Source: Henricia sp. BOLD:AAB3569
Taxonomy: Eukaryota > Echinodermata > Asteroidea > Spinulosida > Echinasteridae
Assembly (NCBI GenBank): GCA_037783545.1
Contig: JBBELK010000068.1
Location: 620,001 to 684,000, forward strand
DNA length: 64,000 bases
Direction of reading: 5' to 3'
Every line of letters begins with the position of its first letter. Within the stretch, counting starts at the first letter, position 1. Below are positions 1-64,000 of this stretch, one piece after another. Under the pieces are notes generated by a model. The model saw only the letters and a list, made by a program, of their open reading frames with translations. It ran no database searches and had not been told where the DNA came from. The position numbers and the translations under genes are program-made.

Positions 1-729
1 TCCACTTTCAGGTTCGTCGTGTTGGTCCCCGTAACTGCCACAACTTCCAGAAGGACGGCAGTCACTTCATCCAATAAACGAATGTTAGGCAAGAGATAGG
101 TCTCCGGTGATTGAAGCTTCAGAGTCAAAGTCACAACCTGCAATGAACAGTTAAAGAAGATTTTTCACATTAGTACACAGCCCGAGAGCAAGTGATGACT
201 AACACACTATTTTCTAAAGGATTTAGATAAATCAGCAGCAAGAACGATGAAGAGTATTCCAAACGTACCGTTTTGCCCGTTTCTTGATCTGGAATTTCAG
301 TGAAGCCGCTGTCTTCCGGGCCCTTGTAAGACACGATAAAGCTGACTACCACTGGCTCAACACCTCGTTCGTCGGCCACGATGGTCAGCCTGATGCCTTT
401 TACAACTGATGGTTTGGACAAGTCAGTGCTAAGCTTTGGTGCTTTCTTTGTGTCATCCGAAATTGGTGCTGGTATCTTCCATGTTTTGGTTTTTGGGTCG
501 ATACTTGACTTGCCAGCTGCGACTTGAGTTATGTCAATTCCTAGTTGTTGATCCATTGGCTCCAGGCAGTACCCTGGTGTTGTGGTGACCAGCGGAACAG
601 AAGTCGTAACTTCAGTCAGCTCTTCACCGGTAGGTGTTGTCACAGTGGTAGTTTTCACTTCTTCAGTTGTGGTGACTGCACCAGTTGTAGTTTCAGTAAC
701 AGTGGAAACCACGTTTGTTGTTTGAGGTG
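1..729 (-). CDS. Unit 0 (partial): exon A 269-729, partial exon B 1-137
   Basis: The most divergent unit and the most C-terminal one in the window. Exon A is 461 nt because it lacks one E-P-V codon triplet found in the array consensus (G-V-E-P-V-V-V-S-F). It also has D-Q-Q-L-G-I-D-I, S-D-D-T-K-K and T-P-T-G. Exon B has L-K-L-Q-S-P, N-I-R-L-L-D-E-V-T-A and N-L-K-V-E; its last 20 nt lie beyond the window. The A-B intron (138-268) is 131 bp. Loop residue R. Confidence 0.8.
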
Positions 730-18700: not shown

Positions 18701-21700
18701 TGACTATATTTTCTAAAGGATTTAGATAAATGAGCAGCAAGAATGATGAAAAGTATTCCAAACGTACCGTTTTGCCTGTTTCTTGATCTGGAATTTCAGT
18801 GAAGCCGCTGTCTTCCGGGCCCTTGTAAGACACGATCAAGCTGACTACCACTGGCTCAACTGGCTCGACACCCCATTCGTCGGCTACGATGGTCAGCCTT
18901 ATGCCTTTTACAACGGATGGTTTGGACAAGTCAGTGCTAAGCTTTGGTGCTTTCTTTCTGTCCTCCGAAATTGGTGCTGGTATCTTCCATGTTTTGGTTT
19001 TTGGGTCGATACTTGACTTGCCAGCAGCGACTTGAGTTACGTCAATTCCTGGTTCTTTATCCATTGGCTCCAGGCAGTATCCTGGTGTTGTGGTGACGAG
19101 CGGAACAGAAGTCGTAACTTCAGTCAGCTCTTCACCGGCAGGTGTTGTCACAGTGGTAGTTTTCACTTCCTCAGTTGTGGTGACCGCACCAGTTGTAGTT
19201 TCAGTAACAGTGGAAACCACGTTTGTTGTTTGAGTTGCTGCAAGCAGAGAAAGAGAATTTCATTTTAATACTGGTGAAGTCGATGGCACTTGAGAACCAA
19301 ACAAGTATTAACATCAATGGTAAGGGGTGAAGTTCTTAGTACTTGGCACACGAGCATGACTTACCTGGACTTGTGGCCTTTGCTGGCAATGTTGCTTTGA
19401 CCGTTGTTGTCTCCTCAGTTGTCGTACCAGATGGTGAAGTGACAACATTTATTGTGGTAACCTTCACTTTAGTGGAAACGGTTCCAGGCTGGTCTCTTAC
19501 GGGTACTCCCGTGGAAAGCACTATAGCACAAACAAAATTGATCACATTCAGTGAAATCACTACAAAACATTTTTTAAATGATTTACTCATATGCAACTGT
19601 GGCTCGCTTCTCTCTTGTACCAAAAAAAGCATTAAAATCGACTGACCTTTGATACATCCCAAAATTTCCACTCTCAGGTTCGTCGTGTTGGTCCCCGTAA
19701 CTGCCACAACTTCCAGAAGGACGCCAGTCACATCATCCAATAAAGGAATGTTAGGCAAGAGATAGGTCTCCGGTGATTGAGGCTTCAGAGTCAAAGTCAC
19801 AACCTGCAATGAACATAGAAGCTTTTTCACATTAGTACACAGCCCGACAGCAAGTGATGACTATATTTTCTAAAGGATTTAGATAAATGAGCAGCAAGAA
19901 TGATGAAAAGTATTCCAAACGTACCGTTTTGCCTGTTTCTTGATCTGGAATTTCAGTGAAGCCGCTGTCTTCCGGGCCCTTGTAAGACACGATCAAGCTG
20001 ACTACCACTGGCTCAACTGGCTCGACACCCCATTCGTCGGCTACGATGGTCAGCCTTATGCCTTTTACAACGGATGGTTTGGACAAGTCAGTGCTAAGCT
20101 TTGGTGCTTTCTTTCTGTCCTCCGAAATTGGTGCTGGTATCTTCCATGTTTTGGTTTTTGGGTCGATACTTGACTTGCCAGCAGCGACTTGAGTTACGTC
20201 AATTCCTGGTTCTTTATCCATTGGCTCCAGGCAGTATCCTGGTGTTGTGGTGACGAGCGGAACAGAAGTCGTAACTTCAGTCAGCTCTTCACCGGCAGGT
20301 GTTGTCACAGTGGTAGTTTTCACTTCCTCAGTTGTGGTGACCGCACCAGTTGTAGTTTCAGTAACAGTGGAAACCACGTTTGTTGTTTGAGTTGCTGCAA
20401 GCAGAGAAAGAGAATTTCATTTTAATACTGGTGAAGTCGATGGCACTTGAGAACCAAACAAGTATTAACATCAATGGTAAGGGGTGAAGTTCTTAGTACT
20501 TGGCACACGAGCATGACTTACCTGGACTTGTGGCCTTTGCTGGCAATGTTGCTTTGACCGTTGTTGTCTCTTCAGTTGTCGTACCAGATGGTGAAGTGAC
20601 AACATTTATTGTGGTCACCTTCACTTTAGTGGGAGTGGTTCCAGGCTGGTCTGTTACGGGTACTCCCGTGGAAAGCTCTATAGCACAAACAAAATTGATC
20701 ACATTCAGTGAAATCACTACAAAACATTTAAAAAATGATTTACTCATATGCAACTGTGGCTCGCTTCTCTCTTGTACCAAAAAAAGCATTAAAATCGACT
20801 GACCTTTGATACAGCCCAAAATTTCCACTCTCAGGTTCGTCGTGTTGGTCCCCGTAACTGCCACAACTTCCAGAAGGACGCCAGTCACATCATCCAATAA
20901 AGGAATGTTAGGCAAGAGATAGGTCTCCGGTGATTGAGGCTTCAGAGTCAAAGTCACAACCTGCAATGAACATAGAAGCTTTTTCACATTAGTACACAGC
21001 CCGACAGCAAGTGATGACTATATTTTCTAAAGGATTTAGATAAATGAGCAGCAAGAATGATGAAAAGTATTCCAAACGTACCGTTTTGCCTGTTTCTTGA
21101 TCTGGAATTTCAGTGAAGCCGCTGTCTTCCGGGCCCTTGTAAGACACGATCAAGCTGACTACCACTGGCTCAACTGGCTCGACACCCCATTCGTCGGCTA
21201 CGATGGTCAGCCTTATGCCTTTTACAACGGATGGTTTGGACAAGTCAGTGCTAAGCTTTGGTGCTTTCTTTCTGTCCTCCGAAATTGGTGCTGGTATCTT
21301 CCATGTTTTGGTTTTTGGGTCGATACTTGACTTGCCAGCAGCGACTTGAGTTACGTCAATTCCTGGTTCTTTATCCATTGGCTCCAGGCAGTATCCTGGT
21401 GTTGTGGTGACGAGCGGAACAGAAGTCGTAACTTCAGTCAGCTCTTCACCGGCAGGTGTTGTCACAGTGGTAGTTTTCACTTCCTCAGTTGTGGTGACCG
21501 CACCAGTTGTAGTTTCAGTAACAGTGGAAACCACGTTTGTTGTTTGAGTTGCTGCAAGCAGAGAAAGAGAATTTCATTTTAATACTGGTGAAGTCGATGG
21601 CACTTGAGAACCAAACAAGTATTAACATCAATGGTAAGGGGTGAAGTTCTTAGTACTTGGCACACGAGCATGACTTACCTGGACTTGTGGCCTTTGCTGG

Positions 21701-39700: not shown

Positions 39701-42700
39701 GGTCAGCCTTATGCCTTTTACAACGGATGGTTTGGACAAATCAGTGCTAAGCTTTGGTGCTTTCTTTCTGTCCTCCGAAATTGGTGCTGGTATCTTCCAT
39801 GTTTTGGTTTTTGGGTCGATACTTGACTTGCCAGCAGCGACTTGAGTTACGTCAATTCCTGGTTCTTTATCCATTGGCTCCAGGCAGTATCCTGGTGTTG
39901 TGGTGACGAGCGGAACAGAAGTCGTAACTTCAGTCAGCTCTTCACCGGCAGGTGTTGTCACAGTGGTAGTTTTCACTTCCTCAGTTGTGGTGACCGCACC
40001 AGTTGTAGTTTCAGTAACAGTGGAAACCACGTTTGTTGTTTGAGTTGCTGCAAGCAGAGAAAGAAAATTTCATTTTAATAGTGGTGAAGTCGATGGCACT
40101 TGAGAACCAAACAAGTATTAACATCAATGGTAAGGGGTGAAGTTCTTAGTACTTGGCACACGAGCATGACTTACCTGGACTTGTGGCCTTTGCTGGCAAT
40201 GTTGCTTTGACCGTTGTTGTCTCCTCAGTTGTCGTACCAGATGGTGAAGTGACAACATTTATTGTGGTAACCTTCACTTTAGTGGAAACGGTTCCAGGCT
40301 GGTCTCTTACGGGTACTCCCGTGGAAAGCACTATAGCACAAACAAAATTGATCACATTCAGTGAAATCACTACAAAACATTTTAAAAATGATTTACTCAT
40401 ATGCAACTGTGGCTCGCTTCTCTCTTGTACCAAAAAAAGCATTAAAATCGACTGACCTTTGATACAGCCCAAAATTTCCACTCTCGGGTTCGTCGTGTTG
40501 GTCCCCGTAACTGCCACAACTTCCAGAAGGACGCCAGTCACATCATCCAATAAAGGAATGTTAGGCAAGAGATAGGTCTCCGGTGATTGAGGCTTCAGAG
40601 TCAAAGTCACAACCTGCAATGAACATAGAAGCTTTTTCACATTAGTACACAGCCCGACAGCAAGTGATGACTATATTTTTTAAATGATTTAGATAAATGA
40701 GCAGCAAGAATGATGAAAAGTATTCCAAACGTACCGTTTTGCCTGTTTCTTGATTTGGAATTTCAGTAAAGCCGCTGTCTTCCGGGCCCTTGTAAGACAC
40801 GATCAAGCTGACTACCACTGGCTCAACTGGCTCGACACCCCGTTCGTCGGCCACGATGGTCAGCCTTATGCCTTTTACAACGGATGGTTTGGACAAGTCA
40901 GTGCTAAGCTTTGGTGCTTTCTTTCTGTCCTCCGAAATTGGTGCTGGTATCTTCCATGTTTTGGTTTTTGGGTCGATACTTGACTTGCCAGCAGCGACTT
41001 GAGTTACGTCAATTCCTGGTTCTTTATCCAGTGGCTCCAGGCAGTATCCTGGTGTTGTGGTGACGAGCGGAACAGAAGTGGTAACTTCAGTCAGCTCTTC
41101 ACCGGCAGATGTTGTCACAGTGGTAGTTTTCACTTCCTCAGTTGTGGTGACCGCACCAGTTGTAGTTTCAGTAACAGTGGAAACCACGTTTGTTGTTTGA
41201 GTTGCTGCAAGCAGAGAAAGAGAATTTCATTTTAATAGTGGTGAAGTCGATGGCACTTGAGAACCAAACAAGTATTAACATCAATGGTAAGGGGTGAAGT
41301 TCTTAGTACTTGGCACACGAGCATGACTTACCTGGACTTGTGGCCTTTGCTGGCAATGTTGCTTTGACCGTTGTTGTCTCCTCAGTTGTCGTACCAGATG
41401 GTGAAGTGACAACATTTATTGTGGTAACCTTCACTTTAGTGGAAACGGTTCCAGGCTGGTCTCTTACGGGTACTCCCGTGGAAAGCACTATAGCACAAAC
41501 AAAATTGATCACATTCAGTGAAATCACTACAAAACATTTTTAAAATGATTTACTCATATGCAACTGTGGCTCGCTTCTCTCTTGTACCAAAAAAAGCATT
41601 AAAATCGACTGACCTTTGATACATCCCAAAATTTCCACTCTCAGGTTCGTCGTGTTGGTCCCCGTAACTGCCACAACTTCCAGAAGGACGCCAGTCACAT
41701 CATCCAATAAAGGAATGTTAGGCAAGAGATAGGTCTCCGGTGATTGAGGCTTCAGAGTCAAAGTCACAACCTGCAATGAACATAGAAGCTTTTTCACATT
41801 AGTACACAGCCCGACAGCAAGTGATGACTATATTTTCTAAAGGATTTAGATAAATGAGCAGCAAGAATGATGAAAAGTATTCCAAACGTACCGTTTTGCC
41901 TGTTTCTTGATCTGGAATTTCAGTGAAGCCGCTGTCTTCCGGGCCCTTGTAAGACACGATCAAGCTGACTACCACTGGCTCAACTGGCTCGACACCCCAT
42001 TCGTCGGCTACGATGGTCAGCCTTATGCCTTTTACAACGGATGGTTTGGACAAGTCAGTGCTAAGCTTTGGTGCTTTCTTTCTGTCCTCCGAAATTGGTG
42101 CTGGTATCTTCCATGTTTTGGTTTTTGGGTCGATACTTGACTTGCCAGCAGCGACTTGAGTTACGTCAATTCCTGGTTCTTTATCCATTGGCTCCAGGCA
42201 GTATCCTGGTGTTGTGGTGACGAGCGGAACAGAAGTCGTAACTTCAGTCAGCTCTTCACCGGCAGGTGTTGTCACAGTGGTAGTTTTCACTTCCTCAGTT
42301 GTGGTGACCGCACCAGTTGTAGTTTCAGTAACAGTGGAAACCACGTTTGTTGTTTGAGTTGCTGCAAGCAGAGAAAGAGAATTTCATTTTAATACTGGTG
42401 AAGTCGATGGCACTTGAGAACCAAACAAGTATTAACATCAATGGTAAGGGGTGAAGTTCTTAGTACTTGGCACACGAGCATGACTTACCTGGACTTGTGG
42501 CCTTTGCTGGCAATGTTGCTTTGACCGTTGTTGTCTCTTCAGTTGTCGTACCAGATGGTGAAGTGACAACATTTATTGTGGTCACCTTCACTTTAGTGGG
42601 AGTGGTTCCAGGCTGGTCTGTTACGGGTACTCCCGTGGAAAGCTCTATAGCACAAACAAAATTGATCACATTCAGTGAAATCACTACAAAACATTTAAAA

Positions 42701-45700
42701 AATGATTTACTCATATGCAACTGTGGCTCGCTTCTCTCTTGTACCAAAAAAAGCATTAAAATCGACTGACCTTTGATACAGCCCAAAATTTCCACTCTCA
42801 GGTTCGTCGTGTTGGTCCCCGTAACTGCCACAACTTCCAGAAGGACGCCAGTCACATAATCCAATAAAGGAATGTTAGGCAAGAGATAGGTCTCCGGTGA
42901 TTGAGGCTTCAGAGTCAAAGTCACAACCTGCAATGAACATAGAAGCTTTTTCACATTAGTACACAGCCCGACAGCAAGTGATGACTATATTTTTTAAATG
43001 ATTTAGATAAATGAGCAGCAAGAATGATGAAAAGTATTCCAAACGTACCGTTTTGCCTGTTTCTTGATTTGGAATTTCAGTAAAGCCGCTGTCTTCCGGG
43101 CCCTTGTAAGACACGATCAAGCTGACTACCACTGGCTCAACTGGCTCGACACCCCGTTCGTCGGCCACGATGGTCAGCCTTATGCCTTTTACAACGGATG
43201 GTTTGGACAAGTCAGTGCTAAGCTTTGGTGCTTTCTTTCTGTCCTCCGAAATTGGTGCTGGTATCTTCCATGTTTTGGTTTTTGGGTCGATACTTGACTT
43301 GCCAGCAGCGACTTGAGTTACGTCAATTCCTGGTTCTTTATCCAGTGGCTCCAGGCAGTATCCTGGTGTTGTGGTGACGAGCGGAACAGAAGTGGTAACT
43401 TCAGTCAGCTCTTCACCGGCAGATGTTGTCACAGTGGTAGTTTTCACTTCCTCAGTTGTGGTGACCGCACCAGTTGTAGTTTCAGTAACAGTGGAAACCA
43501 CGTTTGTTGTTTGAGTTGCTGCAAGCAGAGAAAGAGAATTTCATTTTAATAGTGGTGAAGTCGATGGCACTTGAGAACCAAACAAGTATTAACATCAATG
43601 GTAAGGGGTGAAGTTCTTAGTACTTGGCACACGAGCATGACTTACCTGGACTTGTGGCCTTTGCTGGCAATGTTGCTTTGACCGTTGTTGTCTCCTCAGT
43701 TGTCGTACCAGATGGTGAAGTGACAACATTTATTGTGGTAACCTTCACTTTAGTGGAAACGGTTCCAGGCTGGTCTCTTACGGGTACTCCCGTGGAAAGC
43801 ACTATAGCACAAACAAAATTGATCACATTCAGTGAAATCACTACAAAACATTTTTAAAATGATTTACTCATATGCAACTGTGGCTCGCTTCTCTCTTGTA
43901 CCAAAAAAAGCATTAAAATCGACTGACCTTTGATACAGCCCAAAATTTCCACTCTCAGGTTCGTCGTGTTGGTCCCCGTAACTGCCACAACTTCCAGAAG
44001 GACGCCAGTCACATCATCCAATAAAGGAATGTTAGGCAAGAGATAGGTCTCCGGTGATTGAGGCTTCAGAGTCAAAGTCACAACCTGCAATGAACATAGA
44101 AGCTTTTTCACATTAGTACACAGCCCGACAGCAAGTGATGACTATATTTTCTAAAGGATTTAGATAAATGAGCAGCAAGAATGATGAAAAGTATTCCAAA
44201 CGTACCGTTTTGCCTGTTTCTTGATCTGGAATTTCAGTGAAGCCGCTGTCTTCCGGGCCCTTGTAAGACACGATCAAGCTGACTACCACTGGCTCAACTG
44301 GCTCGACACCCCATTCGTCGGCTACGATGGTCAGCCTTATGCCTTTTACAACGGATGGTTTGGACAAGTCAGTGCTAAGCTTTGGTGCTTTCTTTCTGTC
44401 CTCCGAAATTGGTGCTGGTATCTTCCATGTTTTGGTTTTTGGGTCGATACTTGACTTGCCAGCAGCGACTTGAGTTACGTCAATTCCTGGTTCTTTATCC
44501 ATTGGCTCCAGGCAGTATCCTGGTGTTGTGGTGACGAGCGGAACAGAAGTCGTAACTTCAGTCAGCTCTTCACCGGCAGGTGTTGTCACAGTGGTAGTTT
44601 TCACTTCCTCAGTTGTGGTGACCGCACCAGTTGTAGTTTCAGTAACAGTGGAAACCACGTTTGTTGTTTGAGTTGCTGCAAGCAGAGAAAGAGAATTTCA
44701 TTTTAATACTGGTGAAGTCGATGGCACTTGAGAACCAAACAAGTATTAACATCAATGGTAAGGGGTGAAGTTCTTAGTACTTGGCACACGAGCATGACTT
44801 ACCTGGACTTGTGGCCTTTGCTGGCAATGTTGCTTTGACCGTTGTTGTCTCTTCAGTTGTCGTACCAGATGGTGAAGTGACAACATTTATTGTGGTCACC
44901 TTCACTTTAGTGGGAGTGGTTCCAGGCTGGTCTGTTACGGGTACTCCCGTGGAAAGCTCTATAGCACAAACAAAATTGATCACATTCAGTGAAATCACTA
45001 CAAAACATTTAAAAAATGATTTACTCATATGCAACTGTGGCTCGCTTCTCTCTTGTACCAAAAAAAGCATTAAAATCGACTGACCTTTGATACAGCCCAA
45101 AATTTCCACTCTCAGGTTCGTCGTGTTGGTCCCCGTAACTGCCCCAACTTCTAGAAGGACGCCAGTCACATAATCCAATAAAGGAATGTTAGGCAAGAGA
45201 TAGGTCTCCGGTGATTGAGGCTTCAGAGTCAAAGTCACAACCTGCAATGAACATAGAAGCTTTTTCACATTAGTACACAGCCCGACAGCAAGTGATGACT
45301 ATATTTTTTAAATGATTTAGATAAATGAGCAGCAAGAATGATGAAAAGTATTCCAAACGTACCGTTTTGCCTGTTTCTTGATTTGGAATTTCAGTAAAGC
45401 CGCTGTCTTCCGGGCCCTTGTAAGACACGATCAAGCTGACTACCACTGGCTCAACTGGCTCGACACCCCGTTCGTCGGCCACGATGGTCAGCCTTATGCC
45501 TTTTACAACGGATGGTTTGGACAAGTCAGTGCTAAGCTTTGGTGCTTTCTTTCTGTCCTCCGAAATTGGTGCTGGTATCTTCCATGTTTTGGTTTTTGGG
45601 TCGATACTTGACTTGCCAGCAGCGACTTGAGTTACGTCAATTCCTGGTTCTTTATCCAGTGGCTCCAGGCAGTATCCTGGTGTTGTGGTGACGAGCGGAA

Positions 45701-48700: not shown

Positions 48701-51700
48701 CAAAGTCACAACCTGCAATGAACATAGAAGCTTTTTCACATTAGTACACAGCCCGACAGCAAGTGATGACTATATTTTCTAAAGGATTTAGATAAATGAG
48801 CAGCAAGAATGATGAAAAGTATTCCAAACGTACCGTTTTGCCTGTTTCTTGATCTGGAATTTCAGTGAAGCCGCTGTCTTCCGGGCCCTTGTAAGACACG
48901 ATCAAGCTGACTACCACTGGCTCAACTGGCTCGACACCCCATTCGTCGGACACGATGGTCAGCCTTATGCCTTTTACAACGGATGGTTTGGACAAGTCAG
49001 TGCTAAGCTTTGGTGCTTTCTTTCTGTCCTCCGAAATTGGTGCTGGTATCTTCCATGTTTTGGTTTTTGGGTCGATACTTGACTTGCCAGCAGCGACTTG
49101 AGTTACGTCAATTCCTGGTTCTTTATCCATTGGCTCCAGGCAGTATCCTGGTGTTGTGGTGACGAGCGGAACAGAAGTCGTAACTTCAGTCAGCTCTTCA
49201 CCGGCAGGTGTTGTCACAGTGGTAGTTTTCACTTCCTCAGTTGTGGTGACCGCACCAGTTGTAGTTTCAGTAACAGTGGAAACCACGTTTGTTGTTTGAG
49301 TTGCTGCAAGCAGAGAAAGAGAATTTCATTTTAATACTGGTGAAGTCGATGGCACTTGAGAACCAAACAAGTATTAACATCAATGGTAAGGGGTGAAGTT
49401 CTTAGTACTTGGCACACGAGCATGACTTACCTGGACTTGTGGCCTTTGCTGGCAATGTTGCTTTGACCGTTGTTGTCTCTTCAGTTGTCGTACCAGATGG
49501 TGAAGTGACAACATTTATTGTGGTAACCTTCACTTTAGTGGGAGCGGTTCCAGGCTGGTCTCTTATGGGTACTCCCGTGGAAAGCACTATAGCACAAACA
49601 AAATTGATCACATTCAGTGAAATCACTACAAAACATTTAAAAAATGATTTACTCATATGCAACTGTGGCTCGCTTCTCTCTTGTACCAAAAAAAGCATTA
49701 AAATCGACTGACCTTTGATACAGCCCAAAATTTCCACTCTCAGGTTCGTCGTGTTGGTCCCTGTAACTGCCACAACTTCCAGAAGGACGCCAGTCACATC
49801 ATCCAATAAAGGAATGTTAGGCAAGAGATAGGTCTCCGGTGATTGAGGCTTCAGAGTCAAAGTCACAACCTGCAATGAACATAGAAGCTTTTTCACATTA
49901 GTACACAGCCCGACAGCAAGTGATGACTATATTTTCTAAATGATTTAGATAAATGAGCAGCAAGAATGATGAAAAGTATTCCAAACGTACCGTTTTGCCT
50001 GTTTCTTGATTTGGAATTTCAGTAAAGCCGCTGTCTTCCGGGCCCTTGTAAGACACGATCAAGCTGACTACCACTGGCTCAACTGGCTCGACACCCCGTT
50101 CGTCGGCCACGATGGTCAGCCTTATGCCTTTTACAACGGATGGTTTGGACAAGTCAGTGCTAAGCTTTGGTGCTTTCTTTCTGTCCTCCGAAATTGGTGC
50201 TGGTATCTTCCATGTTTTGGTTTTTGGGTCGATACTTGACTTGCCAGCAGCGACTTGAGTTACGTCAATTCCTGGTTCTTTATCTAGTGGCTCCAGGCAG
50301 TATCCTGGTGTTGTGGTGACGAGCGGAACAGAAGTGGTAACTTCAGTCAGCTCTTCACCGGCAGATGTTGTCACAGTGGTAGTTTTCACTTCCTCAGTTG
50401 TGGTGACCGCACCAGTTGTAGTTTCAGTAACAGTGGAAACCACGTTTGTTGTTTGAGTTGCTGCAAGCAGAGAAAGAGAATTTCATTTTAATAGTGGTGA
50501 AGTCGATGGCACTTGAGAACCAAACAAGTATTAACATCAATGGTAAGGGGTGAAGTTCTTAGTACTTGGCACACGAGCATGACTTACCTGGACTTGTGGC
50601 CTTTGCTGGCAATGTTGCTTTGACCGTTGTTGTCTCCTCAGTTGTCGTACCAGATGGTGAAGTGACAACATTTATTGTGGTAACCTTCACTTTAGTGGGA
50701 ACGGTTCCAGGCTGGTCTCTTACGGGTACTCCCGTGAAAAGCACTATAGCACAAACAAAATTGATCACATTCAGTGAAATCACTACAAAACATTTTAAAA
50801 ATGATTTACTCATATGCAACTGTGGCTCGCTTCTCTCTTGTACCAAAAAAAGCATTAAAATCGACTGACCTTTGATACAGCCCAAAATTTCTACTCTCAG
50901 GTTCGTCGTGTTGGTCCCCGTAACTGCCACAACTTCCAGAAGGACGCCAGTCACATCATCCAATAAAGGAATGTTAGGCAAGAGATAGGTCTCTGGTGAT
51001 TGAGGCTTCAGAGTCAAAGTCACAACCTGCAATGAACATAGAAGCTTTTTCACATTAGTACACAGCCCGACAGCAAGTGATGACTATATTTTCTAAAGGA
51101 TTTAGATAAATGAGCAGCAAGAATGATGAAGAGTATTCCAAACGTACCGTTTTGCCTGTTTCTTGATCTGGAATTTCAGTGAAGCCGCTGTCTTCCGGGC
51201 CCTTGTAAGACACGATAAAGCTGACTACCACTGGCGCAACTGGCTCGACACCCCGTTCGTCGGCCACGAAGGTCAGCCTTATGCCTTTTACAACTGATGG
51301 TTTGGACAAGTCAGTGCTAAGCTTTGGTGCTTTCTTTCTGTCCTTCGAAATTGGTGCTGGTATCTTCCATGTTTTGGTTTTTGGGTCGATACTTGACTTG
51401 CCAGCAGAGACTTGAGTTACGTCAATTCCTGGTTCTTTATCCATTGGCTCCAGGCAGTATCCTGGTGTTGTGGTGACGAGCGGAACAGAAGTCGTAACTT
51501 CAGTCAGCTCTTCACCGGCAGGTGTAGTCACAGTGGTAGTTTTCACTTCCTCAGTTGTGGTGACCGCACCAGTTGTAGTTTCAGTAACAGTGGAAACCAC
51601 GTTTGTTGTTTGAGTTGCTGCAAGCAGAGAAAGAGAATTTCATTTTAATACTGGTGAAGTCGATGGCACTTGAGAACCAAACAAGTATTAACATCAATGG

Positions 51701-60700: not shown

Positions 60701-63700
60701 GGCAGTATCCTGGTGTTGTGGTGATGAGCGGAACAGAAGTCGTAACTTCAGTCAGCTCTTCACCGGCAGGTGTTGTCACAGTGGTAGTTTTCACTTCCTC
60801 AGTTGTGGTGACCGCACCAGTTGTAGTTTCAGTAACAGTGGAAACCACGTTTGTTGTTTGAGTTGCTGCAAGCAGAGAAAGAGAATTTCATTTTAATACT
60901 GGTGAAGTCGATGGCACTTGAGAACCAAACAAGTATTAACATCAATGGTAAGGGGCGAAGTTCTTAGTACTTAGCACACGAGCATGACTTACCTGGACTT
61001 GTGGCCTTTGCTGGCAATGTTGCTTTGACCGTTGTTGTCTCTTCAGTTGTCGTACCAGATGGTGAAGTGACAACATTTATTGTGGTAACCTTCACTTTAG
61101 AGGGAACGGTTCCAGGCTGGTCTCTTACGGGTACTCCCGTGGAAAGCACTATAGCACAAACAAAATTGATCACATTCAGTGAAATCACTACAAAACATTT
61201 TAAAAATGATTTACTCATATGCAACTGTGGCTCGCTTCTCTCTTGTACCAAAAAAAGCATTAAAATCGACTGACCTTTGATACAGCCCAAAATTTCCACT
61301 CTCAGGTTCGTCGTGTTGGTCCCCGTAACTGCCACAACTTCCAGAAGGACACCAGTCACATCATCCAATAAAGGAATGTTAGGCAAGAGATAGGTCTCCG
61401 GTGATTGCGGCTTCAGAGTCAAAGTCACAACCTGCAATGAACATAGAAGCTTTTTCACATTAGTACACAGCCCGACAGCAAGTGATGACTATATTTTCTA
61501 AAGGATTTAGATAAATGAGCAGCAAGAATGATGAAGAGTATTCCAAACGTACCGTTTTGCCTGTTTCTTGATCTGGAATTTCAGTGAAGCCGCTGTCTTC
61601 CGGGCCCTTGTAAGACACGATAAAGCTGACTACCAATGGCTCAACTGGCTCGACACCCCGTTCGTCGGCCACGATGGTCAGCCTTATGCCTTTTACAACT
61701 GATGGTTTGGACAAGTCAGTGCTAAGCTTTGGTGCTTTCTTTCTGTCCTCCGAAATTGGTGCTGGTATCTTCCATGTTTTGGTTTTTGGGTCGATACTTG
61801 ACTTGCCAGCAGAGACTTGAGTTACGTCAATTCCTGGTTCTTTATCCATTGGCTCCAGGCAGTATCCTGGTGTTGTGGTGACGAGCGGAACAGAAGTCGT
61901 AACTTCAGTCAGCTCTTCACCGGCAGGTGTTGTCACAGTGGTAGTTTTCACTTCCTCAGTTGTGGTGACCGCACCAGTTGTAGTTTCAGTAACAGTGGAA
62001 ACCACGTTTGTTGTTTGAGTTGCTGCAAGCAGAGAAAGAGAATTTCATTTTAATACTGGTGAAGTCGATGGCACTTGAGAACCAAACAAGTATTAACATC
62101 AATGGTAAGGGGTGAAGTTCTTAGTACTTAGCACACGAGCATGACTTACCTGGACTTGTGGCCTTTGCTGGCAATGTTGCTTTGACCGTTGTTGTCTCTT
62201 CAGTTGTCGTACCAGATGGTGAAGTGACAACATTTATTGTGGTAACCTTCACTTCAGTGGGAACGGTTCCAGGCTGGTCTCTTACGGGTACTCCGGTGGA
62301 AAGCACTATAGCACAAACAAAATTGATCACATTCAGTGAAATCACTACAAAACATTTTAAAAATGATTTACTCATATGCAACTGTGGCTCGCTTCTCTCT
62401 TGTACCAAAAAAAGCATTAAAATCGACTGACCTTTGATACAGCCCAAAATTTCCACTCTCAGGTTCGTCGTGTTGGTCCCCGTAACTGCCACAACTTCCA
62501 GAAGGACGCCAGTCACATCATCCAATAAAGGAATGTTAGGCAAGAGATAGGTCTCTGGTGATTGAGGCTTCAGAGTCAAAGTCACAACCTGCAATGAACA
62601 TAGAAGCTTTTTCACATTAGTACACAGCCCGACAGCAAGTGATGACTATATTTTCTAAAGGATTTAGATAAATGAGCAGCAAGAATGATGAAGAGTATTC
62701 CAAACGTACCGTTTTGCCTGTTTCTTGATCTGGAATTTCAGTGAAGCCGCTGTCTTCAGGGCCCTTGTAAGACACGATAAAGCTGACTACCACTGGCGCA
62801 ACTGGCTCGACACCCCGTTCGTCGGCCACGATGGTCAGCCTTATGCCTTTTACAACTGATGGTTTGGACAAGTCAGTGCTAAGCTTTGGTGCTTTCTTTC
62901 TGTCCTCCGAAATTGGTGCTGGTATCTTCCATGTTTTGGTTTTTGGGTCGATACTTGACTTGCCAGCAGAGACTTGAGTTACGTCAATTCCTGGTTCTTT
63001 ATCCATTGGCTCCAGGCAGTATCCTGGTGTTGTGGTGACGAGCGGAACAGAAGTCGTAACTTCAGTCAGCTCTTCACCGGCAGGTGTTGTCACAGTGGTA
63101 GTTTTCACTTCCTCAGTTGTGGTGACCGCACCAGTTGTAGTTTCAGTAACAGTGGAAACCACGTTTGTTGTTTGAGTTGCTGCAAGCAGAGAAAGAGAAT
63201 TTCATTTTAATACTGGTAAAGTCGATGGCACTTGAGAACCAAACAAGTATTAACATCAATGGTAAGGGGTGAAGTTCTTAGTACTTAGCACACGAGCATG
63301 ACTTACCTGGACTTGTGGCCTTTGCTGGCAATGTTGCTTTGACCGTTGTTGTCTCTTCAGTTGTCGTACCAGATGGTGAAGTGACAACATTTATTGTGGT
63401 AACCTTCACTTTAGTGGGAACGGTTCCAGGCTGGTCTCTTACGGGTACTCCCGTGGAAAGCACTATAGCACAAACAAAATTGATCACATTCAGTGAAATC
63501 ACTACAAAACATTTTAAAAATGATTTACTCATATGCAACTGTGGCTCGCTTCTCTCTTGTACCAAAAAAAGCATTAAAATCGACTGACCTTTGATACAGC
63601 CCAAAATTTCCACTCTCAGGTTCGTCGTGTTGGTCCCCGTAACTGCCACAACTTCCAGAAGGACACCAGTCACATCATCCAATAAAGGAATGTTAGGCAA

Positions 63701-64000
63701 GAGATAGGTCTCCGGTGATTGAGGCTTCAGAGTCAAAGTCACAACCTGCAATGAACATAGAAGCTTTTTCACATTAGTACACAGCCCGACAGCAAGTGAT
63801 GACTATATTTTCTAAAGGATTTAGATGAGCAGCAAGAATGATGAAGAGTATTCCAAACGTACCGTTTTGCCTGTTTCTTGATCTGGAATTTCAGTGAAGC
63901 CGCTATCTCCTGGGCCCTTGTAAGACACGATAAAGCTGACTACCACTGGCTCAACTGGCTCGACACCCCGTTCGTCGGCCACGATGGTCAGCCTTATGCC
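1..64000 (-). CDS. Giant mucin-like protein with ~55 tandem discoidin-like domains (internal part of one gene, both ends missing)
   Basis: Seen: 167 minus-strand exons (165 complete) joined by GT..AG introns in the fixed phase series 0, 1, 1. They give about 43.3 kb of coding sequence, roughly 14,440 codons, with no stop inside an exon. Each 261-residue repeat is a Thr-rich linker followed by a Cys-to-Cys domain of about 153 residues that resembles F5/8 type C (discoidin). Known for the families: discoidin domains mediate adhesion or carbohydrate/lipid binding outside the cell, and Thr-rich linkers are usually O-glycosylated. Inferred: a very large secreted or surface adhesive or gel-forming protein. 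No signal peptide, membrane anchor, start codon or stop codon lies in the window, so localisation is not proven. It could in principle be an array of separate genes or a decayed array, but the uninterrupted phases and intact exons argue against both. Confidence 0.85.
730..849 (-). other. Diverged C-A intron, 120 bp (units 1 to 0)
   Basis: Donor GTGAGT instead of GTAAGT, many substitutions against the 127-bp consensus, acceptor TTTCAG. A near copy occurs at 28485-28604 and nowhere else. Confidence 0.8.
850..1880 (-). CDS. Unit 1: exons A 1411-1880, B 1133-1289, C 850-1005
   Basis: Linker type E, loop W, exon B with V-A-I-T-G. The B-C intron (1006-1132) is 127 bp, one base longer than elsewhere, and is diverged. 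The C donor is GTGAGT, followed by the diverged 120-bp C-A intron at 730-849. Intermediate between unit 0 and the homogeneous block. Confidence 0.85.
1881..2007 (-). other. C-A intron (reference copy), 127 bp, phase 1
   Basis: Donor GTAAGT, and an acceptor with the pyrimidine run TTCTCTTTCTCTGCTTGCAG. It interrupts the Thr-rich linker. Read through, it stops after a few codons (..C-S-C-A-K-Y). A diverged 120-bp form with donor GTGAGT occurs at 730-849 and 28485-28604, and a 128-bp form at 4195-4322 and 6510-6637. Confidence 0.85.
2008..2163 (-). CDS. Exon C (reference copy, unit 2): Thr-rich interdomain linker
   Basis: 156 nt, phase 1 to phase 1. The acceptor ends GCTATAG and the donor reads CCAG/GTAAGT. 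The single base from exon B completes its first codon (GTG Val, or GAG Glu in type E units). It reads V-L-S-T-G-V-P, D-Q-P-G-T-T-P, then T-S-P-S-G-T-T-T-E-E-T-T-T-V-K and ends K-A-T-S-P-G. About 15 of 52 residues are Thr and there is no Cys. Together with the start of exon A it forms a mucin-like stalk of about 107 residues between successive globular domains. This exon carries most of the subtype-defining variation between units. Confidence 0.85.
2008..3037 (-). CDS. Unit 2: exons A 2568-3037, B 2290-2446, C 2008-2163
   Basis: Used as the reference unit for exon boundaries. Linker type I (V-P-I-R-D), loop W. The A-B intron start differs from most neighbours (GATGAATATA on the plus strand), a variant shared with units 5 and 9. 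Confidence 0.87.
2164..2289 (-). other. B-C intron (reference copy), 126 bp, phase 1
   Basis: Donor GTCAGT and acceptor ..TTGTGCTATAG. The length is a multiple of three, and in most units there is no stop in the reading frame of the flanking exons, so retention would add 42 residues. Twelve units (8, 11, 21, 23, 30, 32, 36, 38, 40, 42, 49, 51) have an in-frame TAA created at a T-run/A-run boundary, and unit 1 is 127 bp long. This supports the segment being a real intron. Confidence 0.75.
2290..2446 (-). CDS. Exon B (reference copy, unit 2): C-terminal third of discoidin-like domain
   Basis: 157 nt: 52 codons plus one base. The acceptor ends TTGCAG and the donor reads AAAG/GTCAGT. It opens V-V-T-L-T-L-K-P in frame with the T that ends exon A. 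It contains E-T-Y-L-L-P-N, then L-L-D-D-V-T-G, then an N-T-T glycosylation sequon at residues 39-41. It closes with N-L-R-V-E-I-L-G-C, the classic end of an F5/8 type C domain. Cys50 of this exon lies 153 residues after the Cys in exon A, the normal Cys-to-Cys span for the family, and is its likely disulfide partner. Only two Cys occur per repeat unit. Confidence 0.85.
2447..2567 (-). other. A-B intron (reference copy), 121 bp, phase 0
   Basis: Donor GTACGT at its high-coordinate end and acceptor ..TTCATTGCAG at its low end. Read through, it encodes a hydrophobic stretch (S-S-F-L-L-L-I-Y-L) and then a stop. That stop occurs in every unit, so splicing is required for a continuous protein. The length is 131 bp in unit 0 and 117 bp in units 47, 51 and 55. 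Confidence 0.85.
2568..3037 (-). CDS. Exon A (reference copy, unit 2): Thr-rich linker plus first two thirds of discoidin-like domain
   Basis: 470 nt, entered in phase 1 (two bases complete a codon) after a pyrimidine-rich acceptor ending TTGCAG, and left in phase 0 at the donor ACG/GTACGT. Residues 1-54 are Thr-rich (22 Thr), with clusters such as T-E-T-T-T and K-T-T-T-V-T-T. The domain begins at Cys55 (Y-C-L-E-P-M-D). Trp84 lies in K-T-W-K-I-P. Residues about 96-114 (P-K-L-S-T-D-L-S-K-P ... V-V-K-G-I) resemble the W-L-Q-V-D-L-G-x-P-x-V-x-G-I core of discoidin domains, with the usual Trp replaced. Residue 122 is the variable loop site (W, R or Q). V-S-Y-K is at 136-139 and G-F-T-E-I-P at 145-150, both typical of the middle of the fold. 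The discoidin assignment rests on motif order and length, not on a search. Confidence 0.85.
3165..4194 (-). CDS. Unit 3: exons A 3725-4194, B 3447-3603, C 3165-3320
   Basis: Linker type TP with a private T-S-P-F-G instead of T-S-P-S-G. Loop R. Private change T-K-I-P-D in exon A (usually T-E-I-P-D). Confidence 0.86.
4323..5352 (-). CDS. Unit 4: exons A 4883-5352, B 4605-4761, C 4323-4478
   Basis: Linker type TP, exon B V-A-I-T-G, loop W. The C-A intron on its 3' side (4195-4322) is 128 bp, with one extra T in a T run. Unit 6 shares all of these, marking a two-unit duplication (units 4-5 and 6-7). Confidence 0.86.
5480..6509 (-). CDS. Unit 5: exons A 6040-6509, B 5762-5918, C 5480-5635
   Basis: Linker type I, loop W. 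Near copy of unit 2, sharing the A-B intron variant GATGAATATA. Confidence 0.86.
6638..7667 (-). CDS. Unit 6: exons A 7198-7667, B 6920-7076, C 6638-6793
   Basis: Linker type TP, exon B V-A-I-T-G, loop W. The 128-bp C-A intron at 6510-6637 matches that of unit 4. One substitution in the A-B intron (CACAATAGTA) removes the usual early stop when unspliced; this has no effect on the spliced frame. Confidence 0.86.
7795..8824 (-). CDS. Unit 7: exons A 8355-8824, B 8077-8233, C 7795-7950
   Basis: Linker type I, loop R. Exon A has T-P-T-G with P-L-D and I-P-N-Q, an early or recombinant form of the SLN set. Confidence 0.86.
8952..9981 (-). CDS. Unit 8: exons A 9512-9981, B 9234-9390, C 8952-9107
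   Basis: First VS-type linker from the left. Loop W. The B-C intron contains the in-frame TAA. Confidence 0.86.
10109..11138 (-). CDS. Unit 9: exons A 10669-11138, B 10391-10547, C 10109-10264
   Basis: Linker type TP, loop Q. Three clustered substitutions near the exon A start turn N-V-V-S-T-V into N-V-V-Y-T-V; the frame is intact. Confidence 0.86.
11266..12295 (-). CDS. Unit 10: exons A 11826-12295, B 11548-11704, C 11266-11421
   Basis: Linker type VS with private K-V-N-V-T (usually K-V-K-V-T). Loop R with the complete SLN set. Confidence 0.86.
12423..13452 (-). CDS. Unit 11: exons A 12983-13452, B 12705-12861, C 12423-12578
   Basis: Linker type VS, loop W. Private conservative change R-V-D-I-L-G-C at the domain end. 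The B-C intron has the in-frame TAA. Confidence 0.86.
13580..14609 (-). CDS. Unit 12: exons A 14140-14609, B 13862-14018, C 13580-13735
   Basis: Linker type E, loop R without the SLN set (P-M-D, I-P-D-Q). Exon A carries a GGTTTTGACAAATC variant (plus strand) shared only with unit 25. Confidence 0.86.
14737..15766 (-). CDS. Unit 13: exons A 15297-15766, B 15019-15175, C 14737-14892
   Basis: Linker type TP, loop W. Counterpart of unit 27. Confidence 0.86.
15894..16923 (-). CDS. Unit 14: exons A 16454-16923, B 16176-16332, C 15894-16049
   Basis: Linker type E, loop Q with E-D-G-G-F (usually E-D-S-G-F). A-B intron variant GTGATTAC. Counterpart of unit 28. Confidence 0.86.
17051..18080 (-). CDS. 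Unit 15: exons A 17611-18080, B 17333-17489, C 17051-17206
   Basis: Linker type VS, loop R with the SLN set. Counterpart of unit 29. Confidence 0.86.
18208..19237 (-). CDS. Unit 16: exons A 18768-19237, B 18490-18646, C 18208-18363
   Basis: Linker type VS, loop W. The B-C intron has the rare six-T/three-A run, shared only with unit 17. Near-identical neighbour of unit 17. Confidence 0.86.
19365..20394 (-). CDS. Unit 17: exons A 19925-20394, B 19647-19803, C 19365-19520
   Basis: Same linker type, loop residue and six-T/three-A intron marker as unit 16; the pair looks like a recent single-unit duplication. Confidence 0.86.
20522..21551 (-). CDS. Unit 18: exons A 21082-21551, B 20804-20960, C 20522-20677
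   Basis: Linker type E, loop W. Leftmost unit of the block repeated at units 33-38. Confidence 0.86.
21679..22708 (-). CDS. Unit 19: exons A 22239-22708, B 21961-22117, C 21679-21834
   Basis: Linker type E, loop Q with E-D-G-G-F. The A-B intron variant GCAAATGATTAC is shared only with unit 34. Confidence 0.86.
22836..23856 (-). CDS. Unit 20: exons A 23396-23856, B 23118-23274, C 22836-22991
   Basis: Linker type VS with private K-V-K-A-T. Loop R with the SLN set. Exon A is 461 nt: one copy of a 9-nt direct repeat (ACTGGCTC-containing) is lost, removing one E-P-V. The frame is kept. Confidence 0.86.
23984..25013 (-). CDS. Unit 21: exons A 24544-25013, B 24266-24422, C 23984-24139
   Basis: Linker type VS, loop W. 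Exon B carries a synonymous GGA for Gly before the final Cys (also units 16, 17, 30, 32, 36). In-frame TAA in the B-C intron. Confidence 0.86.
25141..26170 (-). CDS. Unit 22: exons A 25701-26170, B 25423-25579, C 25141-25296
   Basis: Linker type E, loop R with the SLN set. Exon B L-L-D-Y-V-T-G (usually L-L-D-D-V-T-G), shared only with units 37 and 39. Confidence 0.86.
26298..27327 (-). CDS. Unit 23: exons A 26858-27327, B 26580-26736, C 26298-26453
   Basis: Linker type VS, loop W. In-frame TAA in the B-C intron. Counterpart of unit 38. Confidence 0.86.
27455..28484 (-). CDS. Unit 24: exons A 28015-28484, B 27737-27893, C 27455-27610
   Basis: Linker type E, loop R with the SLN set. It is preceded in the transcript by the diverged 120-bp C-A intron (28485-28604). 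Confidence 0.86.
28485..28604 (-). other. Diverged C-A intron, 120 bp (units 25 to 24)
   Basis: Nearly the same as the intron at 730-849, including the GTGAGT donor and the seven-base length difference, but flanked by ordinary array exons. Confidence 0.8.
28605..29634 (-). CDS. Unit 25: exons A 29165-29634, B 28887-29043, C 28605-28760
   Basis: Linker type TP with the donor GTGAGT (otherwise only unit 1) and private synonymous changes in the T-V-K stretch. Loop R, P-M-D. Private L-V-T-R-T-P in exon A. Exon A otherwise matches unit 12. Confidence 0.86.
29762..30791 (-). CDS. Unit 26: exons A 30322-30791, B 30044-30200, C 29762-29917 (F-type island)
   Basis: Linker V-P-S-K, loop R, V-S-A-G-K and V-V-V-S-F: all F-subfamily markers, although it sits between L-type units. 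Exon B variants (GGACACCAG and GATTGCGG on the plus strand) and the preceding GGGGCGAAG match unit 53, 27 units away. Confidence 0.86.
30919..31948 (-). CDS. Unit 27: exons A 31479-31948, B 31201-31357, C 30919-31074
   Basis: Linker type TP, loop W; L-type again immediately after the unit 26 island. Counterpart of unit 13. Confidence 0.86.
32076..33105 (-). CDS. Unit 28: exons A 32636-33105, B 32358-32514, C 32076-32231
   Basis: Linker type E, loop Q, E-D-G-G-F, and intron variant GTGATTAC as in unit 14. Confidence 0.86.
33233..34262 (-). CDS. Unit 29: exons A 33793-34262, B 33515-33671, C 33233-33388
   Basis: Linker type VS, loop R with the SLN set; counterpart of unit 15. Confidence 0.86.
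34390..35419 (-). CDS. Unit 30: exons A 34950-35419, B 34672-34828, C 34390-34545
   Basis: Linker type VS, loop W, synonymous GGA in exon B, in-frame TAA in the B-C intron. Confidence 0.86.
35547..36576 (-). CDS. Unit 31: exons A 36107-36576, B 35829-35985, C 35547-35702
   Basis: Linker type VS, loop R with the SLN set. With unit 30 it repeats the pattern of units 29 and 32. Confidence 0.86.
36704..37733 (-). CDS. Unit 32: exons A 37264-37733, B 36986-37142, C 36704-36859
   Basis: Linker type VS, loop W, synonymous GGA in exon B, in-frame TAA in the B-C intron. A private intron substitution just upstream of exon A (GAATTTAATTTT) leaves the acceptor intact. Confidence 0.86.
37861..38890 (-). 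CDS. Unit 33: exons A 38421-38890, B 38143-38299, C 37861-38016
   Basis: Linker type E, loop W. Counterpart of unit 18. Confidence 0.86.
39018..40047 (-). CDS. Unit 34: exons A 39578-40047, B 39300-39456, C 39018-39173
   Basis: Linker type E, loop Q, E-D-G-G-F, A-B intron variant GCAAATGATTAC. Counterpart of unit 19. Confidence 0.86.
40175..41204 (-). CDS. Unit 35: exons A 40735-41204, B 40457-40613, C 40175-40330
   Basis: Linker type VS, loop R with the SLN set. Private N-P-R-V-E near the domain end (usually N-L-R-V-E). Full-length counterpart of the 9-nt-deleted unit 20. Confidence 0.86.
41332..42361 (-). CDS. Unit 36: exons A 41892-42361, B 41614-41770, C 41332-41487
   Basis: Linker type VS, loop W, synonymous GGA in exon B, in-frame TAA in the B-C intron. 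Counterpart of unit 21. Confidence 0.86.
42489..43518 (-). CDS. Unit 37: exons A 43049-43518, B 42771-42927, C 42489-42644
   Basis: Linker type E, loop R with the SLN set, L-L-D-Y-V-T-G. Counterpart of unit 22. Confidence 0.86.
43646..44675 (-). CDS. Unit 38: exons A 44206-44675, B 43928-44084, C 43646-43801
   Basis: Linker type VS, loop W, in-frame TAA in the B-C intron. Counterpart of unit 23. Confidence 0.86.
44803..45832 (-). CDS. Unit 39: exons A 45363-45832, B 45085-45241, C 44803-44958
   Basis: Linker type E, loop R with the SLN set, L-L-D-Y-V-T-G plus private E-V-G-A-V. Copy of unit 37, two units away. Confidence 0.86.
45960..46989 (-). CDS. Unit 40: exons A 46520-46989, B 46242-46398, C 45960-46115
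   Basis: Linker type VS, loop W, in-frame TAA in the B-C intron. Copy of unit 38. Confidence 0.86.
47117..48146 (-). CDS. Unit 41: exons A 47677-48146, B 47399-47555, C 47117-47272
   Basis: Linker type E, loop R with the SLN set. Its A-B intron carries CTAAATGATTT rather than TTAAATGATTT, like units 24 and 43. Confidence 0.86.
48274..49303 (-). CDS. Unit 42: exons A 48834-49303, B 48556-48712, C 48274-48429
   Basis: Linker type VS, loop W. Private I-V-S-D-E (usually I-V-A-D-E). In-frame TAA in the B-C intron. Confidence 0.86.
49431..50460 (-). CDS. Unit 43: exons A 49991-50460, B 49713-49869, C 49431-49586
   Basis: Linker type I but with G-T-A-P-T-K. Loop R with the SLN set. Last unit of the L block on the right. 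Confidence 0.86.
50588..51617 (-). CDS. Unit 44: exons A 51148-51617, B 50870-51026, C 50588-50743 (L/F boundary)
   Basis: Exon C is a mosaic: its low-coordinate part matches VS-type units, while V-P-T-K and everything above it are F-type. Private V-L-F-T-G. Exon A has V-S-A-G-K, I-S-K-D-R, T-F-V-A-D-E and E-P-V-A-P-V. Loop R. Confidence 0.86.
51745..52774 (-). CDS. Unit 45: exons A 52305-52774, B 52027-52183, C 51745-51900
   Basis: Linker V-P-T-K with S-P-S-S-T-T (usually S-P-S-G-T-T). Exon A has the same translation as unit 44, including I-S-K-D-R and T-F-V-A-D-E. Confidence 0.86.
52902..53931 (-). CDS. Unit 46: exons A 53462-53931, B 53184-53340, C 52902-53057
   Basis: Exons B and C match unit 45 (S-P-S-S-T-T). 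Exon A reverts to I-S-E-D-R and T-I-V-A-D-E with E-P-V-A-P-V. A TTTTAGGGTC variant is shared with units 50 and 51. Confidence 0.86.
54059..55084 (-). CDS. Unit 47: exons A 54615-55084, B 54341-54497, C 54059-54214
   Basis: Linker V-P-T-E, loop R, V-S-A-G-K. The A-B intron (54498-54614) is 117 bp. A substitution in that intron near the acceptor (CAATTAACAT) leaves the AG intact. Confidence 0.86.
55212..56241 (-). CDS. Unit 48: exons A 55772-56241, B 55494-55650, C 55212-55367
   Basis: Linker V-P-T-E with private V-V-P-S-P. Exon A has P-L-I-T-T-T, V-I-Q-V-S (private) and W-K-I-S-A-P. Confidence 0.86.
56369..57398 (-). CDS. Unit 49: exons A 56929-57398, B 56651-56807, C 56369-56524
   Basis: Linker V-P-S-K. 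Exon A has P-L-I-T-T-T, W-K-I-S-A-P and E-P-V-A-P-V. In-frame TAA in the B-C intron. Confidence 0.86.
57526..58555 (-). CDS. Unit 50: exons A 58086-58555, B 57808-57964, C 57526-57681
   Basis: Linker A-P-T-K. Private E-P-V-V-P-V in exon A. Exon B nucleotide variants match units 26 and 53. Confidence 0.86.
58683..59708 (-). CDS. Unit 51: exons A 59239-59708, B 58965-59121, C 58683-58838
   Basis: Linker V-P-T-K, exon A E-P-L-V-V, private S-P-E-S-Y in exon B. 117-bp A-B intron (59122-59238). In-frame TAA in the B-C intron. Confidence 0.86.
59836..60865 (-). CDS. Unit 52: exons A 60396-60865, B 60118-60274, C 59836-59991
   Basis: Linker V-P-T-E. Exon A has P-L-I-T-T-T, W-K-I-S-A-P and E-P-V-A-P-V, like unit 48 four units away. 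Confidence 0.86.
60993..62022 (-). CDS. Unit 53: exons A 61553-62022, B 61275-61431, C 60993-61148
   Basis: Linker V-P-S-K, exon A E-P-L-V-V. Closest relative of the unit 26 island across exons B and C and the neighbouring intron. Confidence 0.86.
62150..63179 (-). CDS. Unit 54: exons A 62710-63179, B 62432-62588, C 62150-62305
   Basis: Linker V-P-T-E, exon A E-P-V-A-P-V. Last complete unit on the right. Confidence 0.86.
63307..64000 (-). CDS. Unit 55 (partial): exon A 63863-64000 (3' 138 nt only), B 63589-63745, C 63307-63462
   Basis: Linker V-P-T-K, loop R, private G-P-G-D-S-G in exon A. The A-B intron (63746-63862) is 117 bp. The rest of exon A and all upstream exons lie beyond the window. 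Confidence 0.83.

Follow-up and report, generated by a model that had tools for sequence, protein, structure and literature searches.

In MUC16, several exons encode each repeat. The repeats are 156 residues long and each consists of a SEA domain and a Pro/Ser/Thr-rich linker, within a giant surface protein (PMC10829539, PMC12070838); the protein was modelled with 63 repeats, of which long-read sequencing of transcripts left 19 (PMC10829539). The KIV-2 array of LPA has units of 5.6 kb, from 1 to about 40 in number, each with two exons and two introns (PMC11462820). In Argiope MaSp2 the introns are homogenized within one gene, to a mean of 97.6%, and those of flagelliform silk likewise; unequal crossing-over was proposed as the cause, and the authors knew of no other eukaryotic gene with two alternating types of homogenized intron (PMC9779670). 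Spider AgSp1 has 42,270 nt of coding sequence and a mass of 1,383 kDa (PMC6553539). In chicken Muc13, mucin repeats come from near-identical repeated exons, and VWD or SEA domains have been used as a criterion for mucins (PMC1552070). In the open-licence literature, judged mostly from titles and abstracts, we recognised no paper on the gene described here, and on genes with repeated or homogenized introns the silk paper (PMC9779670) was the only one found among titles and abstracts.

The window, by which we mean the whole stretch of 64 kb that was analysed, is filled completely by a continuous head-to-tail array on its minus strand, and no other sequence is present. The array has 55 full units and a partial piece at each end. 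Units were delimited by an exact 20-base anchor that occurs 56 times on the minus strand, and cutting at the anchor leaves a 137-nt head and a 269-nt tail besides the full units. Unit length is exactly 1,157 bp in 47 of the 55 units and 1,142 to 1,158 bp in the remaining eight. Each unit comprises three exons and three short introns, whose commonest lengths in gene order are 157 nt for exon B, 126 for intron BC, 156 for exon C, 127 for intron CA, 470 for exon A and 121 for intron AB. The exons add up to 783 nt, or 261 codons, and the lengths place intron AB in phase 0 and introns BC and CA in phase 1. Tandem Repeats Finder reported no repeat, because its longest period is 500; searches of the window for tRNAs and against Rfam gave no match. 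The units are numbered u01 to u55, and the main features are as follows.

1..64000, minus strand: tandem array, 55 full units plus a partial piece at either end, from the anchor and the unit alignment
63863..64000, minus strand: 3' portion of an exon A that is truncated at the end of the window
62711..63863, minus strand: unit u01, 1,153 bp, measured from the final base of the preceding exon A
63589..63745, minus strand: exon B of u01, 157 nt, encoding the C-terminal portion of the two-cysteine domain
63463..63588, minus strand: intron BC of u01, 126 nt, phase 1
63307..63462, minus strand: exon C of u01, 156 nt, encoding the first portion of the Thr-rich linker
63180..63306, minus strand: intron CA of u01, 127 nt, phase 1
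62710..63179, minus strand: exon A of u01, 470 nt, which completes the linker and encodes the N-terminal portion of the domain; intron AB (phase 0) comes next
49992..51148, minus strand: u12, a hybrid with the u01–u11 type on the left and the u14 type on the right, 3 differences remaining
31480..45363, minus strand: u17–u28, first copy of a duplicated segment
15298..28015, minus strand: u32–u42, second copy of the duplicated segment, shorter by one unit
18769..19925, minus strand: u39, equal to the left part of u40 plus the right part of u25 with zero differences
28016..29165, minus strand: u31, divergent, with a block around intron CA in common with u55
270..1411, minus strand: u55, the most divergent full unit and the probable array edge
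1..137, minus strand: exon B of the unit after u55, truncated at the start of the window and likewise divergent

Projecting the consensus exon borders onto all aligned units gave 167 exon pieces (56 A, 56 B and 55 C), of which 165 are whole and two are cut by the window ends. The spliced sequence is 43,322 nt long and contains 14,440 whole codons without a stop; the other five frames contain 959, 771, 336, 897 and 243 stops. All 166 introns have the form GT..AG. These results bear out the preliminary description of this DNA, made from the letters alone, which had given at least 14,400 codons in 167 exons and had described every exon as open, with phase kept at every junction over 64 kb. It had also put the number of 261-residue repeats that one transcript could encode at 55 or more. 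There are indeed 55 full units, but the residue count holds for 53 of them, u35 and u55 encoding 258. In both, 9 nt are missing from almost the same position of exon A, with the frame kept. The loss falls in a nine-base duplication of exon A (GAGCCAGTT/GAGCCAGTG), takes away one of the copies of a three-residue domain repeat, and may represent one event or two.

We consider it likely that the window is an internal part of one very large animal extracellular glycoprotein gene, encoded on the minus strand, whose modules are joined by splicing; the assignment to an animal is based on the style of the domain. The product would be a secreted or surface glycoprotein that repeats one 261-residue module at least 55 times, each module having a 105-residue Thr-rich linker, probably O-glycosylated, and a 156-residue two-cysteine domain. 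The anatomy is observed; splicing of the three short introns in each unit would then join the modules in one frame. Such a protein might serve as an extended series of binding domains carried on stiff, sugar-bearing spacers, possibly in mucus, glue, cuticle or a cell-surface coat. The visible part of the encoded protein would have a mass of about 1,514 kDa. Its earlier placement in the size class of the largest known proteins is fair; it sets no record, titin being larger.

The linker occupies consensus residues 53 to 157 (exon C plus the beginning of exon A), and 34% of its 105 residues are Thr. Across all 55 units its content of Ser plus Thr is 39 to 42% and of Pro 7 to 10%, a Pro/Thr/Ser-rich region of the mucin type as judged by composition rather than by a formal published cut-off. 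No VWD or SEA domain was matched by Pfam within the repeat. Exon C resembles the beginning of exon A at about the level expected from composition (256 of 5,000 shuffles). Among the exons, C differs most from unit to unit (mean identity 97.45%, with 24 of 156 sites variable) and B least, with a mean identity of 99.24%.

The domain is encoded by the rest of exon A and exon B. It is 156 residues long with one cysteine near each end, and every one of the 55 units has exactly two cysteines. Because introns BC and CA are both phase 1, the domain is flanked by phase 1 introns, an arrangement that is usual for animal extracellular modules. Nothing in Pfam scored above cut-off for the repeat; there was no F5/8 type C match at E values up to 10, and no match for the whole 261-residue unit or for its C-terminal 99 residues. 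The sole match was to PF24607 (CBM_AftD), a carbohydrate-binding module of AftD, with E values of 0.003 to 0.006 and about 17 bits, below the cut-off of 27. A search of the repeat against NCBIfam gave none. Three PDB matches were dismissed, as they rest on a 19-residue stretch that is repeated in designed proteins, with an E value of at least 370 for each printed stretch. A structure model of exon A alone had a mean pLDDT of 41.9 and was useless.

By eye, the ends of the domain resemble discoidin. The pattern used for the comparison has a cysteine at each end, a C.EP start, a DL...V.GI core and an LRVE.LGC end. Against six discoidins, none of 2,000 shuffles attained the end-to-end alignment score, and 13 of 2,000 attained the local score. 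The discoidin HMM score is just 4.6 bits, yet it was beaten by only 1 of 5,000 shuffles. Hhalign gave a probability of 19% in global mode and 33% in local mode, the latter on the last 21 columns. When the ends were held fixed during shuffling, the discoidin score was reached by 11 of 2,000 shuffles (6 + 13 residues fixed) and by 163 of 2,000 (20 + 21 residues fixed), and for the interior of the domain alone by 144 of 2,000. These fixed-end and interior shuffles show that the resemblance is carried mainly by the ends and should be treated as a lead; we describe the domain as weakly similar to discoidin (F5/8 type C). Pattern searches for relatives produced 45 matches in viral contigs and 395 in GTDB genomes, none of which was confirmed; for an animal gene, these are the wrong places to look.

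Several analyses bear on whether the array is coding. The longest stop-free run in a single unit (u29, six frames, treated as circular) is 194 codons, a length reached by 2 of 1,000 dinucleotide shuffles. Since the units are copies of each other, 55 open units do not amount to 55 independent tests; the variation between them is more informative. The alleles segregating in the exons comprise 40 synonymous, 49 non-synonymous and no stop alleles, where 25.7, 61.0 and 2.2 are expected. Over all units, including u31 and u55, the deficit of non-synonymous alleles has p = 0.0016; the absence of stop alleles is not significant alone (p = 0.10). Neither of the two wrong frames shows a shortage of non-synonymous alleles, and they contain 6 and 9 stop alleles. 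When the divergent units u31 and u55 are left out, the true frame has 26 synonymous and 42 non-synonymous alleles (p = 0.08), and much of the selection signal therefore comes from older units; the ratio stays at 0.58 in the domain and goes from 0.45 to 0.86 in the linker.

Intron BC provides an internal control, with an in-frame stop in 12 of the 55 units and a frameshift in a thirteenth, compared to no exon stop in any of the 55. Relative to the consensus, the introns (partial unit included) have undergone seven insertion or deletion events, of which two are multiples of three and five are not. Overall diversity is equal in exons (0.0147) and introns (0.0145). This is expected if exchange copies whole units, and is equally expected of a young functionless array. 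The combined data support some constraint on the exon frame, and make a coding function of the array likely, although not proven.

Intron BC has some features of its own. In 54 of 55 units its length is divisible by three, and in 42 of the 55 it is open and reads as a Met followed by a hydrophobic stretch that resembles a signal peptide, in frame with exon C. This is probably a chance occurrence in a T-rich intron; it is possible that it is the trace of an old first exon. Retention of the intron was considered as well, and set aside.

Two alternatives would remove the large gene altogether. One is that the array is satellite-like and not transcribed, an amplified coding segment kept uniform through exchange only. 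The equal diversity of exons and introns would fit this, as would the weakening of the selection signal without u31 and u55, but the exons have no stops where intron BC has them in 12 units, the gaps in the exons are of 9 nt, and all the splice sites have been kept. A young array could still look like this, and we regard the explanation as improbable. The other is that each unit is a separate small gene that starts at the Met and signal-like stretch in intron BC, in accordance with the 42 units in which that stretch is in frame. In 12 others, however, a stop comes right after the Met, and in the 42 open units there is no stop from exon B onwards until intron CA of the next unit; simulations of an intron this T-rich left the phase open by chance in 4.8% of the sequences. 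Separate small genes were accordingly set aside, on the stops in intron BC and the missing stop downstream of exon B, and we give them almost no weight.

The units are highly similar to each other, with mean pairwise identities between 97.45 and 99.24% depending on the exon or intron. The three introns are 97.9 to 99.0% alike across the 55 units; compared with each other, the three intron types give low local scores (raw scores, with no null distribution). There are 37 distinct exon sequences among the 55 units, and 17 of the 1,485 unit pairs are identical. Variants are distributed in regional types: one set is common to u01–u11, u12–u48 mix several types, which alternate strictly at u14–u20, and u43–u54 mostly lean to another type. 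Units u17–u23 recur as u32–u38, with 8 substitutions and one 9-nt gap over about 8.1 kb, and u25–u28 recur as u39–u42, with 5, 1, 0 and 0 differences. In eight of the 55 units a fit to two parents is better than a fit to one by at least 4 differences. These fits are exact for u25 and u39, leave 1 difference in u29 and u30 and 3 in u12 and u49, and are poor for u31 (18 left) and u55 (44 left).

As far as the sequence can tell us, the hybrids and the duplicated segment are the pattern left by in-register unequal crossing-over or conversion. Such exchange between whole units would copy introns and exons together, which would keep the units alike and make the number of modules easy to change. The intron phases mean that in-register exchange, like skipping of whole units, keeps the frame. 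An extended form of our proposal, which we hold tentatively and at rather less than even weight, is that one transcript and one protein run over all of the modules, at least 55 of them and over 1.5 MDa before sugars, that the array is a length generator, and that the domain belongs to a family new to Pfam. The three homogenized introns in rotation would supply long identity for in-register exchange, and chain length would evolve fast and differ between individuals, with the frame intact. The preliminary description had likewise proposed that an unstable array sets the length of the protein; the duplicated block and the in-register hybrids fit this proposal, as seen in one haplotype.

Divergence from the consensus is uneven along the array. 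There are 50 substitutions in u55 and 29 in u31, and 4 to 13 in every other unit; the partial unit beyond u55 has 11 substitutions in 269 nt and two intron insertions. The divergence of u55 and of the partial unit that follows it indicates that the edge of the array on the 3' side of the gene is probably close to base 1 of the window. At the opposite end u01 has 9 substitutions, and no edge is in sight. The earlier statement that neither end is in view is therefore literally true, but passes over this sign of an edge on the 3' side. Units u31 and u55 lie some 27 kb from each other and have in common a divergent block, in which intron CA bears two deletions and the donor and acceptor are changed (GTGAGT, TCAG). 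The block gives the impression of edge-type sequence that was copied inwards.

Two further alternatives accept the gene and question its length. The array might be transcribed into messages that skip many units or end early, so that the protein would be far smaller than the array could encode. Three segments are phase-symmetric, namely exon C by itself, exons A plus B, and the unit as a whole, and skipping any of these keeps the frame; it is also likely given splice sites that are identical across all units, and splice variants of MUC16 that omit whole repeats have been reported (PMC12563253). We give this roughly the standing of a one-in-several outcome, and note that it is compatible with our main reading of a single large glycoprotein gene. 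Somewhat less probable, and on balance unlikely, is that the gene is real and its copy number inflated, allelic arrays or mis-joined long reads having been set in tandem so that the true array is shorter. Segments u17–u28 and u32–u42 are near-identical, as two haplotypes could be, and the fall of the MUC16 repeat number from 63 to 19 on re-sequencing (PMC10829539) is a direct warning, by analogy, for the copy number here. Against this, the units differ in many small ways, as their 37 distinct exon sequences show, and the clean hybrid u39 is not readily made by assembly, although the long duplication could be. Over 40 units remain even without the second copy of the segment.

If it is transcribed whole, this array is among the longest coding repeat arrays, built from a repeat that falls under every Pfam cut-off. 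It would provide a clean case for the idea, derived from silk, of repeated introns as guides of unequal exchange that keep the coding repeats alike (PMC9779670), and it exemplifies the kind of sequence on which short-read gene models and proteome databases would fail.

The kind of gene is a known one; what is unusual is its scale, together with the three introns repeated uniformly in each unit. With MUC16 it shares repeats made of a domain and a Pro/Ser/Thr-rich linker, a giant protein, and a repeat number that is hard to establish. It differs in having 261-residue repeats, a two-cysteine domain with no SEA match, and three introns that are 97.9 to 99.0% alike. In chicken Muc13 the repeats are of 20 residues with one exon each, in at least 12 copies (PMC1552070). 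AgSp1 too is a repeat protein of great length whose Ser/Thr regions are probably glycosylated, but its gene has two large exons and one intron; its whole length of 42,270 nt and 1,383 kDa compares with 43,322 nt and about 1,514 kDa for the visible part alone here. The kringle IV type 2 VNTR of LPA is a coding repeat unit with several exons and introns, and the same trait, a multi-exon and multi-intron unit that closes in phase, is present here, with three exons, three introns of about 121 to 127 bp, and another domain. Its two introns per unit suggest that the silk authors' statement was too strict. The MaSp2 and flagelliform genes of spiders also have repeating exon–intron units with introns homogenized within the gene. 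Their proteins are rich in Ala, Gly, Pro and Gln, whereas the protein encoded here is rich in Thr and Val, and they have one intron type or two that alternate (PMC9779670), where this array has three homogenized types in fixed rotation through 55 units.
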